Position numbers and translations under genes: made by a program. DNA of 34,173 nt from Candidatus Methanomethylophilaceae archaeon. Its GTDB lineage: Archaea; Thermoplasmatota; Thermoplasmata; Methanomassiliicoccales; Methanomethylophilaceae. The notes beneath the pieces were generated by a model. That model had not been told where the DNA came from. It did not search any database and saw nothing but the letters and a program-made list of their open reading frames with translations. The stretch lies in NCBI GenBank assembly GCA_944321985.1, contig CALUNK010000008.1:1-34173 (forward strand), written 5' to 3'. Positions 3,474 through 24,140 of this stretch are shown piece after piece. The first letter of the stretch is position 1, and every line of letters begins with the position of its first letter.

Positions 3474-4649
3474 ATGGATTTCAACGAAGTAAAATCGAAG
3501 AGCGACCGCTATCTGTTCCAAAACTACGGTCGCATCCCCTTGTCGTTCACGCACGGCAGTGGATGCTACCTGTACGGGAGCGACGGCAGGGAGTACCTGG
3601 ACCTTGTGGCTGGAATCGCTGTGAACTCCCTCGGGTATGCCCATCCCGACGTCACCAGGGCGATCCAGGAGCAGGCATCGCGGATGACACACGTCTCCAA
3701 CCTGTACTATGTGGAGCAGCAGGCGGAGCTGGCGGAGAGGATTTCGTCCATAACCCCCGGCAACCTGGACAGGACTCTGTTCTGCAACAGCGGCGCCGAG
3801 GCCAACGAGGGCGCTCTGAAGGTAGCCGTTCGTTATACTGGACGCAGCAAGGTAATGGCCGCTCTGGACGGGTTCCACGGCAGGACGTCCGCTGCGATGG
3901 GAGCCACCGGCCAGGAGAGCATTCAGAAGTCCTTTGAACCCCTGATATCCGATGCTTACGAGTACTTCAGGTTCGGGGATCTCGAGAACGTCAAGGAGAA
4001 GATGACCAAGGATGTCGCCGCGCTCATTGTCGAGCCCATACAGGGAGAGAGCGGGGTGCACACCGCTACCGCGGAGTTCTTCAAGGGTGTCCGCGACCTG
4101 TGCACCGACAACGGGACGATGATGGTTGTGGACGAGGTCCAGACGGGCATCGGGCGCACCGGAGAATGGTACGGCATCCAGAACTACGGGGTCGTCCCCG
4201 ACATCATCACGATGGCGAAGGCGCTTGGCGGGGGGACGCCGATCGGTGCCGTAACCACCACCGACGACATCTCAGCGGTCATGACCCCGGGTTCCCACGG
4301 GACCACTTTCGGCGGCAATCCCCTGGTTTGCAGCGCGGGATGCGCGGTGCTGGACGTCATGAAGAGAGACGGCATCGTCGCCCATGCCAAGGAAGTCGGT
4401 TCCAGATGGATGGCGGACCTCATGTCAATAGACTCGCCCAGGATCGCTGACGTTCGCGGATGCGGCCTCATCATCGGTGTCCAGATGGACTCGAACGAGA
4501 CGGCCTCGATGGTCCAGAGGTACTGTCGCGACAACGGTGTTCTCATCAACGTCGCACACGGCGGTACGATCCGCCTCATCCCTCCGCTCATCATCGACGA
4601 CTCCCAGAAGGATGTGTTCACGAAGCTTCTGAAAGAGGCGTTGAACTGA
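3474..4649 (+). CDS. argD: Acetylornithine aminotransferase (PLP-dependent, class III)
   Basis: Converts N-acetylglutamate semialdehyde to N-acetylornithine with glutamate as amino donor. Fold type I class III signatures: FCNSGAEANEGALK, the HGRTSAAM loop, VDEVQTGIGRTG, and the PLP-binding lysine in ITMAKALGGGTPIG (Lys249). The length of 391 residues is normal. A GTG at 3465 overlapping the argB stop, with a GTGA junction, is in frame and would add three residues; the ATG at 3474 is the simpler choice. It is the last gene of argCJBD; the spacer after it is T-rich. Confidence 0.94.
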   Translation: MDFNEVKSKSDRYLFQNYGRIPLSFTHGSGCYLYGSDGREYLDLVAGIAVNSLGYAHPDVTRAIQEQASRMTHVSNLYYVEQQAELAERISSITPGNLDRTLFCNSGAEANEGALKVAVRYTGRSKVMAALDGFHGRTSAAMGATGQESIQKSFEPLISDAYEYFRFGDLENVKEKMTKDVAALIVEPIQGESGVHTATAEFFKGVRDLCTDNGTMMVVDEVQTGIGRTGEWYGIQNYGVVPDIITMAKALGGGTPIGAVTTTDDISAVMTPGSHGTTFGGNPLVCSAGCAVLDVMKRDGIVAHAKEVGSRWMADLMSIDSPRIADVRGCGLIIGVQMDSNETASMVQRYCRDNGVLINVAHGGTIRLIPPLIIDDSQKDVFTKLLKEALN

Positions 4650-20667: not shown

Positions 20668-20844
20668 TTGGCGTAAAGAGTCGGGAACCCAGAGGGTCAA
20701 CGGGAGGGTGGCTCCTGCACCCATTCCTCGGACTTACGATTCAGGCGACGGGTCTGTCCGTTAGGTCCGATTCCAAAGGCGGTAGGTCGAAGAAACCGAT
20801 GAATGACCCCATTCTTTTTCAGCGACCGATGCTTACGAATGTTC

Positions 20845-21078
20845 ATGGATGAGAGTTATCGCAAGTGTCGCACGTGCAGGTTCTGCAGGCATGCAGGAGA
20901 CTTGTGGGTATGTCTCCCGGAGTCGAGGTCCACGTTGCCTGACGAAACCTGCGGGAGGTACCGTCCAGGTTGTTGTGAGAACTGTCTCCACTATTCAGGA
21001 GGGAGATGCCAAAGGACCGGGAACGAGATGTTCCCCCTGGATGTCTGCTCCGATTACGATCCGTCGGGTGCGATATGA
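20845..21078 (+). CDS. Small protein with two tandem CxxC metal-binding modules
   Basis: A 77-residue protein starting MDESYRKCRTCRFCRH. Two modules with the same plan follow: a CxxC pair, a single Cys after about 8-10 residues, then Cys with a following Tyr (first module ending ETCGRYRPG, second CENCLHYSGGRCQRTG ending DVCSDYDP). The pattern resembles small cysteine-rich proteins of anaerobes that probably hold zinc or iron; function unknown. In-frame ATGs at 20803 and 20839 are possible; 20845 gives the shortest and most plausible N-terminus. It lies alone between the PDT-like operon and the DUF5685-like gene, with about 270 bases of featureless DNA after it. Confidence 0.65.
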   Translation: MDESYRKCRTCRFCRHAGDLWVCLPESRSTLPDETCGRYRPGCCENCLHYSGGRCQRTGNEMFPLDVCSDYDPSGAI

Positions 21079-21352: not shown

Positions 21353-22258
21353 TCACTCGGACATCCTGGCGCTCCTGTTGGAGAACACGTTCTTGACGCT
21401 AGCCTTGGCCTGTGCGTTTCCAGAGATGACCTTCCTCGCGGATTCGGGGATGCCATAATAGACGATGTTGTCGCACAGTGACACGTTCCCCCTCATCATC
21501 GGCCGGACCTTGGAGTAGTTGGACTGGAGGGATCCGATGGTCTCGTTGACGAGGCCTGTGAACTGGAAGATGTTCGAGTCGATGAGCTTCCTGGCGTTGA
21601 CGAACCCGGAATCTGGCAGAAGCGGGTTGTAGGTGCCCTCCATGAAATCCTCATCCAGGTCGTCGATGGCATCCATTATGTAGACCGCGGTGCTCAGCTC
21701 GGTGAAGAGCTCTCCGAGTTCCGGGGAGTAGGAGTCGCCGGCGATGTCCTCCAATGCCCCTATGAGGCCCTTCCCGAACGTCCTTCCCATGAGGCGAGCG
21801 TCTTTGCAGCCTTCCAGTTCCAGCTCCCTTAGGTTTCTGAACCCCTCTCCGACCATATCGTCGTAGTCCGGATGCAATCCCACTGCCTTCTCTATCGCCC
21901 GGTTCAGTGTCAGGGATATGAACTTGGATTTGAGGGAGGGGTCGTCTGTCTCGTCGTCGTAGAGCTCCCACTTCGTCAGAATCAGGGTGTATGCGGCCAT
22001 GTCGCGCATCAGTTCGTCGTCGGTCTTGGAGCGTTCAAGGACGCAGATCGTGTTCTCCGTGGGGCCGATGTCAAGGGCCCTGCCCGTCAGGCCGCAGAGC
22101 AGGATGGTGTTGAACGTCATGTCGTAGTTCACCGTCAGCGTCCCCGTGAGACCGAAACCGTCGTGCAGCTGATGGCATCCCTCGCAGTAGTACCTCCTGT
22201 ATCTCGAGAGGTCTGCGGGGGAGAGCCTGCCGTACGCCGGGACGGTGTAGCCGAACAT
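21353..22258 (-). CDS. DUF5685-like protein
   Basis: A 301-residue soluble, mostly helical protein. It opens MFGYTVPAYGRLSPADLSRY and continues YYCEGCHQLHDGFGLTGTLT, the typical beginning of the DUF5685 group, with a CxxC pair near residue 25. In the second half lies YIMDAIDDLDEDFMEGTYNP, an aspartate-rich helix reminiscent of the metal-binding DDxxD motif of isoprenoid synthases. That likeness is my own reading and does not prove such activity. The start at 22258 is the only sensible one. It is divergent from the cysteine-rich peptide and radical SAM genes, 437 bases away, so it may or may not belong to that system. Confidence 0.68.
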   Translation of the reverse strand: MFGYTVPAYGRLSPADLSRYRRYYCEGCHQLHDGFGLTGTLTVNYDMTFNTILLCGLTGRALDIGPTENTICVLERSKTDDELMRDMAAYTLILTKWELYDDETDDPSLKSKFISLTLNRAIEKAVGLHPDYDDMVGEGFRNLRELELEGCKDARLMGRTFGKGLIGALEDIAGDSYSPELGELFTELSTAVYIMDAIDDLDEDFMEGTYNPLLPDSGFVNARKLIDSNIFQFTGLVNETIGSLQSNYSKVRPMMRGNVSLCDNIVYYGIPESARKVISGNAQAKASVKNVFSNRSARMSE

Positions 22259-22630: not shown

Positions 22631-22689
22631 CGTTAAATACGCGCACTAAGTACGCCTAGACTGTACCGAATTCAGCGTCGGTAGGTGAG
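22631..22689 (+). promoter_or_regulatory. Promoter and ribosome site of the peptide/radical SAM operon
   Basis: A TATA-like CGTTAAATAC (22631-22640) would place the transcript start near 22660. GGTGAG (22684-22689), the strong archaeal ribosome site, lies six bases before the peptide's ATG. A dedicated promoter plus a strong site fits high expression of the peptide. Confidence 0.55.
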
Positions 22690-22695
22690 TATCCC

Positions 22696-22992
22696 ATGTC
22701 GTACGAGTCAGAATCCGTAGACAAATTGACCGCACTTTACGAGAGCCAGTCCCCGTCCGCGTTCATCGCGTTCGCTATGGAGGGACTTCCCGAGACTACC
22801 CACGACGAGCGTGTCGACAAGGGGGACCACGACGGATCCACGAAGTGCGACTACTGCTGCTGCGACGACAAGGGATGCTGCAACACTCCCGGATGGTACG
22901 GCTGCCTCATCGGAGGAGTCGTAGTCTGTGTCATCTGTTGTTGCTACGCCACCAACGGTTTCAACGGTGTCTGGACCTACTGGCCATTCTGA
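22696..22992 (+). CDS. Cysteine-rich peptide, probable precursor of a radical-SAM-modified product
   Basis: A 98-residue peptide in two parts. Residues 1-50 are polar and free of cysteine, with a helical stretch (TALYESQSPSAFIAFAMEGLPE) and a charged linker, as expected for a leader. Residues 51-98 hold 11 cysteines (51, 54, 55, 56, 61, 62, 70, 78, 81, 82, 83) in clusters YCCC, GCC and ICCC. A Gly/Val-rich hydrophobic segment (residues about 66-84) and an aromatic end (NGVWTYWPF) complete it. The radical SAM/SPASM gene starts 14 bases after its stop. Together this is the typical layout of a RiPP precursor with its maturase. A metal-binding peptide or membrane-bound small protein is the main alternative. 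No known precursor family is recognised. Confidence 0.75.
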   Translation: MSYESESVDKLTALYESQSPSAFIAFAMEGLPETTHDERVDKGDHDGSTKCDYCCCDDKGCCNTPGWYGCLIGGVVVCVICCCYATNGFNGVWTYWPF

Positions 22993-23006
22993 TCCAGCGA
23001 AGCCGT

Positions 23007-24140
23007 ATGAAACCCTACCTGTCGGTAGTCGTGAAGCCGACGCTGTACTGCAACACGGGATGTAGGCACTGCTACCATACACCGGACGAGAGGGTCAAGG
23101 GCGAAATGTCCCTCGACACTCTCGATCGTCTTTTCAAGATGGTCTCACAGGAGTACGAGGCCGCATGGTTCATCTGGCATGGCGGGGAGCCGCTCACACT
23201 CCCCATGTCGTTCTACAAGGAGGCCATCGAGCTCCAGAAGAAGTACTTCGGCAGGAAGAACGGACGCTGCGGCAACACTGTCCAGACAAACGGGACGCTC
23301 ATCAACAGGCGTTTCATGGCATACTGCAGGGAGAAGCAGATCAACGTAGGTGTCTCCTACGAGGGTCCATACAATCATGTCCTCAGGGAGGGCGATCCGT
23401 CCAAGGCCCTGGACCTCCTATCATCCAAGGAGAATAAGTATTCCGTGTCCGCAACGATATCGGCGGAGACCGCTCTGAAGCAGAAGGATCTGTACGACCA
23501 TTTCAAGGTCAAAGGAACCAACCTCTCCCTGTCCCCGGTGATCCCCGCCGGATGCGCCAGATCCAACGGCACGGTTCCCGATGCGGACGATTTCATAAGG
23601 GGGAGCATCGAGGCATTCAATGCGTGGTTCCACGACTCCGAAGCGAACGTTCCGCTCATACCCCACTATCTGTACATCCTCAACTATCTGGGGGATCCCA
23701 CACCATCGGATTGCGCCCACACGTCATGCCTCACCAAATGGATGTGCGTCAACCCCGACGGGTCCGTCTACCCCTGTGCCAAGGCATGTCCCTCCGAGTT
23801 CTACATGGGGAACATAAACGGGGTCTCGTCCATATCCGAGCTGTTCCAGTCAGAGGGTTTCAGGAGGATCCTTGTCGGCTCCATAAAGAGGCGCGAGAAG
23901 TGCGCGTCTTGTCCGATATTCAGGTACTGTAACGGCGGGTGCAGCATGGACGCCTATCACGAGGGATGTCTTGAGGACAACGGCAACGATTCCTGCAGGA
24001 TCTTCAGAGAGGTCTTCACCCACATCTCCAATGAGGTCCAGGCTGTTCTTGACGGGGATGGCGACGTGTCAGGGCTCAATCCGTTCGTCAGGGATGCGAT
24101 TGTGGGAAAGCTGGTGAACCCCCGCGTCGTGTCGCAATGA
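23007..24140 (+). CDS. Radical SAM/SPASM peptide maturase
   Basis: A 377-residue enzyme. The radical SAM cluster motif is CNTGCRHC (Cys15, 19, 22), followed by WHGGEPLTL (SAM contact), QTNGT and a normal half-barrel. The SPASM region carries further cysteines at 236, 241, 247, 257, 261, 299, 302, 308, 312, 321 and 330, including CVNPDGSVYPC and CASCPIFRYCNGGC, enough for two auxiliary iron-sulfur clusters. SPASM enzymes of this form make thioether or carbon-carbon links in peptides, or mature sulfatases; no sulfatase is here. With the cysteine-rich peptide directly upstream, thioether formation on that peptide is the natural inference. The start at 23007 gives the usual short N-terminus before the first strand; the frame extends upstream only across the peptide gene. 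Confidence 0.9.
   Translation: MKPYLSVVVKPTLYCNTGCRHCYHTPDERVKGEMSLDTLDRLFKMVSQEYEAAWFIWHGGEPLTLPMSFYKEAIELQKKYFGRKNGRCGNTVQTNGTLINRRFMAYCREKQINVGVSYEGPYNHVLREGDPSKALDLLSSKENKYSVSATISAETALKQKDLYDHFKVKGTNLSLSPVIPAGCARSNGTVPDADDFIRGSIEAFNAWFHDSEANVPLIPHYLYILNYLGDPTPSDCAHTSCLTKWMCVNPDGSVYPCAKACPSEFYMGNINGVSSISELFQSEGFRRILVGSIKRREKCASCPIFRYCNGGCSMDAYHEGCLEDNGNDSCRIFREVFTHISNEVQAVLDGDGDVSGLNPFVRDAIVGKLVNPRVVSQ

Follow-up and report, generated by a model that had tools for sequence, protein, structure and literature searches.

The window, i.e., the whole 34,173-nucleotide stretch analysed here, carries a gene for a 98-residue peptide (22696-22992, + strand), the putative substrate, followed after an intergenic gap of 14 nt (22993-23006) by the gene of a 377-residue radical SAM/SPASM enzyme (23007-24140, +). 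A TATA-like box, TTAAATA (22633-22639, +), and a ribosome-binding site, GGTGAG (22684-22689, +; 6 nt 5' of the peptide ATG), precede the pair; the nearest relative has retained both, and the other genus members inspected have TATA-like and GGTGA-type variants of these elements. Upstream, in the opposite direction, lies the gene of a 301-residue protein of the DUF5685 family (PF18937; 21353-22258, − strand), whose start is 437 nt from the peptide gene. The original prediction had described a peptide without cysteines in residues 1-50 and with 11 in the last 48, encoded 14 bases ahead of the enzyme and behind a promoter and GGTGAG site; the open reading frame translation and coordinates agree with this, and the promoter and ribosome-binding elements were located. 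Its account of a two-gene system, however, has to give way to one of three genes, because the divergent DUF5685 gene, omitted from the earlier coordinates, is coupled to the peptide-enzyme pair and is its most constant neighbour. Tail to tail with the DUF5685 gene, a cysteine-rich protein of 91 residues (CRTCRFCRHAG...; 20803-21078, +) is encoded, which has no Pfam match and is found in 14 of 38 neighbourhoods.

Residues 1-50 of the peptide are leader-like: they are free of cysteine, share a conserved L..LY..QSP.AF pattern and contain predicted helices at 8-18 and 20-29. After this leader helix region and a variable linker, the cysteine-rich half (residues 51-98; 22846-22989, +) presents, in order, a conserved C-x-[Y/W/F]-x-CC...G.C motif, a hydrophobic stretch, CC-x-Y and the C-terminal [YFWC]-W-P-[F/N/Y/L]. 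The hydrophobic stretch has a mean Kyte-Doolittle value of 2.0-3.1 over 17 residues, with a predicted helix at 65-85. Invariant or nearly so are Y15 and Q18 of the leader, together with H45, C51, Y53, C55, C56, C82, Y84, G88, Y95, W96 and P97; W96 and P97 are strictly invariant, and position 53 is held by an aromatic residue in the wider homologue set. The residues at i+2 from the conserved aromatics are cysteine (C55), threonine or serine, and proline. No match to a known precursor family was obtained in NCBIfam, Pfam or PDB, in line with the earlier remark that no precursor class could be recognised. The AlphaFold model of the peptide (pLDDT 57.7) was used for helix positions only, its low confidence being expected of a substrate peptide.

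Both the peptide and the enzyme are under purifying selection, with dN of 0.01-0.18 and dS of 0.37-1.09 among genus members, and leader and core behave alike. On sequence grounds, the peptide would be a precursor composed of a leader-like, cysteine-free helical half and a cysteine-rich half, each held by purifying selection. Chance clustering of the cysteines is excluded by this protein-level conservation (dN << dS) and by a probability of about 1e-10 for at least 11 cysteines in 48 residues at an assumed cysteine background of 1.5%.

The peptide gene lies directly 5' of the enzyme gene, at a gap of about 0-53 nt, in all 63 homologous loci whose upstream DNA could be read. This set is independent of the genome survey described below, and all its loci come from Methanomethylophilaceae-type methanogen genomes; the peptide was recognised by a strict motif in 56 loci and by inspection in the other 7, where Trp or Phe usually replaces Tyr in C-x-Y-x-CC. 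In one locus (L144, near 3950-4000) the peptide frame has no stop after WPF and runs into the enzyme start, which could reflect an error in sequencing or a genuine overlap. Among 60 genomes of the family, the enzyme was detected in 49, the peptide in 48 and both in 48, and the peptide profile returned a single peptide for each enzyme locus; joint presence and absence is significant for enzyme and peptide (Fisher p=4e-11) as well as for enzyme and DUF5685 (Fisher p=4e-9). The co-occurrence check proposed with the original prediction thus links precursor and enzyme, and no close enzyme homologue among the 63 loci was found without the peptide beside it. A profile search of 100 genomes revealed no unlinked or additional precursor copies, and two possible extra peptides (G015:C18 and G016:C14, long open reading frames with weak phmmer matches) were lost when the profile was used. 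In 40 genomes from other families of the order, the peptide profile had no match, and enzyme matches were weak and distant. By named genome records, the hosts are Methanomethylophilaceae, including Methanomethylophilus, Methanoplasma and Methanomicula.

The enzyme begins with MKPYLSVV, a start conserved in its homologues, and carries the radical SAM cluster motif CNTGCRHC at residues 15-22 (23049-23072, +). Its SPASM region (C236-C330; 23712-23996, +) contains eight anSME-type ligand cysteines, C236, C241, C257, C299, C302, C308, C312 and C330. None of these eight or of the three radical SAM cysteines varies among 30 family sequences, which bears out the full SPASM cysteine set originally predicted; C107 and C261, the latter within the SPASM region, are additional invariant cysteines in the same sequences. 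Both PF04055 and PF13186 score above cut-off. The best profile is DynA (159 bits), followed by the anaerobic sulfatase maturase TIGR03942 (153), TIGR04083 (104.5), GrrM (93.8) and AmcB (92.4), and no peptide-maturase or anSME profile comes near its own cut-off. Among the 3-CyFE models, GrrM (93.8 bits against a cut-off of 310), AmcB (92.4/425) and YhhB (61.7/445) all remain unreached, and the scores for SCIFF (TIGR03974; 62.6/425), PapB (NF047865; 58.9/340) and CcpM (43.9/500) are likewise far under their thresholds. Among solved structures, anSME, CteB and ChlB come closest.

An N-terminal RRE domain is absent from the enzyme. A stand-alone PqqD-type RRE was matched once, weakly, in the window's own genome and not in the other 59 genomes, so a PqqD-like RRE is not considered part of the system; the sole match (L228, G000:C136:35158-35331) is an AT-rich PqqD-like open reading frame that could belong to a foreign element or a contaminating contig. 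As noted in the original prediction, no protease or exporter gene is adjacent, and none was constant among the neighbours in 38 loci; leader removal and export by general factors are possible. In the enzyme tree, the family and three gut Clostridial enzymes form one clade with 100/100 support, with anSME apart. As the tree contains few references, with long branches for CteB, 8vpo and ChlB, conclusions from it are restricted to the family clade, the Clostridial enzymes as its sisters and the separate placement of anSME. One genome (G032, L079:5099-6200, −) encodes an intact enzyme frame without CxxxCxxC and GGEP, in which the eight SPASM cysteines are retained, and the peptide and DUF5685 are kept as well; among family enzymes the loss of CxxxCxxC is confined to this locus. 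It may represent either early decay or a natural radical-dead variant in which the SPASM protein has a non-catalytic role, e.g., in peptide binding, and, because the peptide is kept, radical chemistry does not appear indispensable in this genome.

The DUF5685 gene is located within 1.5 kb of the enzyme, in divergent orientation, in 55 of 56 further loci; in the sole exception (G015) some 20 kb of one contig separate the two. Across the 38 neighbourhoods it is the most constant companion, and the remaining genes vary. An AlphaFold model (pLDDT 88.7) predicts an all-alpha, isoprenoid-synthase-like fold, and each of the best 50 Foldseek matches in the PDB is either an isoprenoid-synthase-fold protein or a UbiA prenyltransferase (E about 1e-2; TM at most 0.52). 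Two Asp-rich motifs are conserved: D101-D-x-x-D105 (21944-21958, −), at the end of helix 82-105, and D196-A-x-D-D200-L-x-x-D204 (21647-21673, −; D196-x-x-D-D200-x-x-x-D204 in general form), at the end of helix 179-199, with three helices between them in the predicted model. This layout suggests a likeness to class I isoprenoid synthases. The protein also has an invariant C25-x-x-C28 followed by H29 (22175-22186, −), a putative metal site, and a third invariant cysteine, C72. A sequence search of the PDB gave no credible match for DUF5685, and homology with polyprenyl synthases at the sequence level was rejected, since hhalign returned 0.2%, a background level like that of the controls. Four genus members (G003, G007, G009 and G012) possess a third, highly divergent gene of the polyprenyl-synthase family (E 1e-11 to 1e-15). 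In bacteria, four of four DUF5685 loci (L187-L190) have a J-domain (DnaJ-like) gene alongside and none has a radical SAM or peptide gene beside DUF5685; in the Clostridia with the closest bacterial enzyme relatives, DUF5685 was not found next to radical SAM genes, J-domain genes being there instead. The general function of DUF5685 may therefore be unrelated to peptide modification, and the J-domain linkage possibly marks a separate role within the family.

We consider it probable that the three genes form a conserved peptide-maturation unit of Methanomethylophilaceae. In the proposed mechanism, the 98-residue peptide would consist of a recognition (leader) half and a cysteine-rich half with a hydrophobic helix and Y-W-P-F at its end; the SPASM enzyme, presumably cotranscribed with it, would abstract hydrogen from the peptide and install at least one oxidative side-chain cross-link in the Cys/aromatic region, as cysteine thioethers or as C-C links at Y53, Y84 and Y95-W96. 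DUF5685 would serve as a dedicated partner, acting on the peptide or carrying it, and, as its predicted fold suggests, may bind a prenyl diphosphate. We infer with strong confidence that the peptide is the substrate of the enzyme, with moderate confidence that a cross-link forms in it, and only weakly that DUF5685 acts on it. The constancy of the peptide 5' of the enzyme and of DUF5685 nearby, the purifying selection on leader and core, and the closest enzyme profiles, which are those of peptide maturases (DynA, TIGR04083, GrrM, AmcB) and anSME, argue for this unit. The lack of an RRE in the enzyme and of a family-wide stand-alone one, the lack of a linked protease or exporter, the poor peptide model, the G032 enzyme that has lost its radical cluster beside a retained peptide, and the J-domain rather than peptide neighbours of bacterial DUF5685 argue against it. 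The earlier designation as a RiPP locus in a methanogen holds for the constant SPASM-enzyme partner and the methanogen hosts; taken to mean a natural product released by cleavage, it is unsupported, because the core shows conservation in place of diversification and there is no linked protease, exporter or RRE. For the same conservation, a constant role of the product, in membrane, redox, signalling or cofactor functions, is more probable than weapon-like diversity. The most likely reading is that of a previously undescribed RiPP-like, family-conserved peptide that receives its cross-links from the SPASM enzyme and is handled by DUF5685, perhaps with prenylation.

Two alternatives would detach the peptide from the enzyme's chemistry. 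TIGR03942 as second-best profile and anSME as best-matching solved structure could indicate that the enzyme matures sulfatases under anaerobic conditions, or performs some comparable housekeeping modification, with an incidental peptide neighbour; this is extremely improbable, and we reject it, since the 153 bits fall far under the 349-bit cut-off, the position corresponding to anSME Asp277, which we take to be the catalytic residue (directly after the YPC cysteine), is Ala, Ser or Gly in the family, no PF00884 sulfatase occurs in 36 family genomes searched, anSME occupies another branch of the limited tree, and the peptide is present at all loci. A grouping with sulfatase maturases, which the original prediction had named as contrary evidence, was accordingly not observed. 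The peptide could also be a cysteine-rich metal-binding or membrane protein, chemically independent of the enzyme and held next to it by shared regulation only. Its cysteine density, a transmembrane-like stretch conserved in hydropathy and not in sequence, and its retention where the enzyme has lost the radical cluster are consistent with such a protein, but we regard this as quite improbable in view of the exclusive one-to-one linkage across the family, the conservation of the leader-like half in the manner of a recognition sequence, and the general action of this enzyme class on short peptides.

Within the preferred maturation unit, the kind of cross-link has to be weighed. Sactionine or ranthipeptide links on cysteine, as originally predicted, would yield a SCIFF-like multi-thioether peptide; the 8-13 cysteines in the last 50 residues of family peptides, with C51, C55, C56 and C82 invariant, fit this part of the prediction, and so does the presence of CteB among the structural matches. 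The closest precedent is SCIFF, a cysteine-rich peptide that is conserved throughout its lineage without diversifying and is encoded next to a SPASM enzyme (PMC8326336). The scores for SCIFF, PapB and CcpM are nevertheless far under their cut-offs, the RRE half of these maturases is missing, and the aromatic positions of the peptide are conserved to the same degree as the cysteines. Moreover, the nearest non-family relatives of the enzyme, with which it shares a supported clade, neighbour Tyr/His-x-Asp peptides with few or no cysteines that resemble cyclophane substrates, so thioethers, plausible but short of an even chance, are one possibility among others. In two Lachnospiraceae relatives (L168 and L169), YSDYM repeats occur in a protein encoded downstream (L168:5110-5919), a Ruminococcus relative (L170) has an upstream 56-residue peptide with HDDYDCHTDY (L170:3758-3925), and the archaeal relatives L171 and L174 are followed by H/Y-x-D rich peptides (L174:5176-5541); these small proteins are likely further undescribed substrate families. 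Triceptide-like cyclophanes, with C-C links from conserved aromatics to a neighbouring beta-carbon and with the cysteines serving metal binding, disulphides or membrane packing, have a precedent in the i+2 links formed by YxdB (Tyr to Asp) and MscB (Phe to Ser) (PMC11002830), and the high rank of the DynA, GrrM and AmcB profiles and the conserved aromatics at 53, Y84 and W96 point in this direction. This version is tentative: no Tyr-x-Asp motif is conserved in the peptide, the residues at i+2 are not those that usually act as acceptors, and no 3-CyFE-type profile reaches its cut-off. Judged from sequence, C-C links of the cyclophane type and thioethers appear about as likely as each other. A further possibility is that DUF5685 is an isoprenoid-synthase-fold peptide prenyltransferase acting on W96 or a cysteine, like ComQ and PalQ; these two and ChrPC share the fold and attach prenyl groups to Trp residues of small peptides (PMC10853753, PMC13290415), and the fold matches, the paired Asp-rich motifs and the invariant C-terminal Trp-Pro suggest a parallel. 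It is an attractive minority hypothesis and on balance unlikely, because the profile-profile comparison at background level and the bacterial J-domain linkage weigh against it, as do the modest Foldseek values (E about 1e-2, TM about 0.5) and the C25-x-x-C28/C72 cysteines, which are foreign to isoprenoid synthases.

A distinctly unlikely extension combines both activities: radical SAM cross-links in the core and an isoprenoid placed on the C-terminal Trp or on Cys by DUF5685 would give a doubly modified archaeal peptide, conserved and membrane-anchored in gut methanogens, and if true, DUF5685 would be an unrecognised family of peptide prenyltransferases. SPASM-matured peptides are already known as a class; what is new here is the peptide family and its DUF5685 partner. 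To our knowledge, few modified ribosomal peptides have been described from archaea, and our literature search found none for Methanomassiliicoccales, nor any account of DUF5685 function. For this Pfam family, which is also bacterial, the locus offers a first functional hypothesis and a testable partner, and the unit would supply a concrete substrate-enzyme pair for study. Since a single-copy peptide is kept by almost all of a host-associated methanogen family, its physiological role is worth finding; the hosts concerned are archaea of human, ruminant and termite guts, where they produce methane.

Several known systems invite comparison. SCIFF (CteA/CteB, Tte1186) likewise pairs a short cysteine-rich, non-diversifying peptide, near-universal in its lineage, with a single SPASM enzyme; the peptide described here is, however, non-homologous, its enzyme is devoid of the RRE half and stays far under the cut-off of the SCIFF model, and the DUF5685 gene, the hydrophobic helix and the YWPF end are absent from SCIFF. 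The triceptide/3-CyFE enzymes (GrrM/OscB, YhhB, YxdB), DynA and AmcB are, like the enzyme of the window, short SPASM proteins without an RRE, and YxdB adjoins Y/H-x-D peptides, as do the nearest relatives of our enzyme; their models remain far under cut-off, and the peptide here is cysteine-rich, without a conserved Tyr-x-Asp or Trp-x-Asn. TIGR04083 (rSAM_pep_methan, the Mhun_1560 family) comprises archaeal SPASM enzymes that modify peptides and are similar in length, but its 300-bit cut-off is not attained and the two are separate families. In anSME (4k36/4k37), the nearest solved structure, domain layout and SPASM ligands are shared, whereas the catalytic Asp is replaced in our enzyme, the family genomes searched contain no sulfatase and the branch is another one. 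Bacterial DUF5685 proteins belong to the same Pfam family and have both Asp-rich motifs and the CxxC; they differ in their DnaJ-like neighbour in place of radical SAM and peptide genes in the four loci. Finally, in ComQ-ComX and PalQ-PalX a protein of isoprenoid-synthase fold, the fold predicted for DUF5685, is encoded next to a small peptide that, as here, has a conserved near-C-terminal Trp, whereas DUF5685 shows no detectable sequence kinship with ComQ or PalQ, the gene order is divergent and a radical SAM gene is adjacent.
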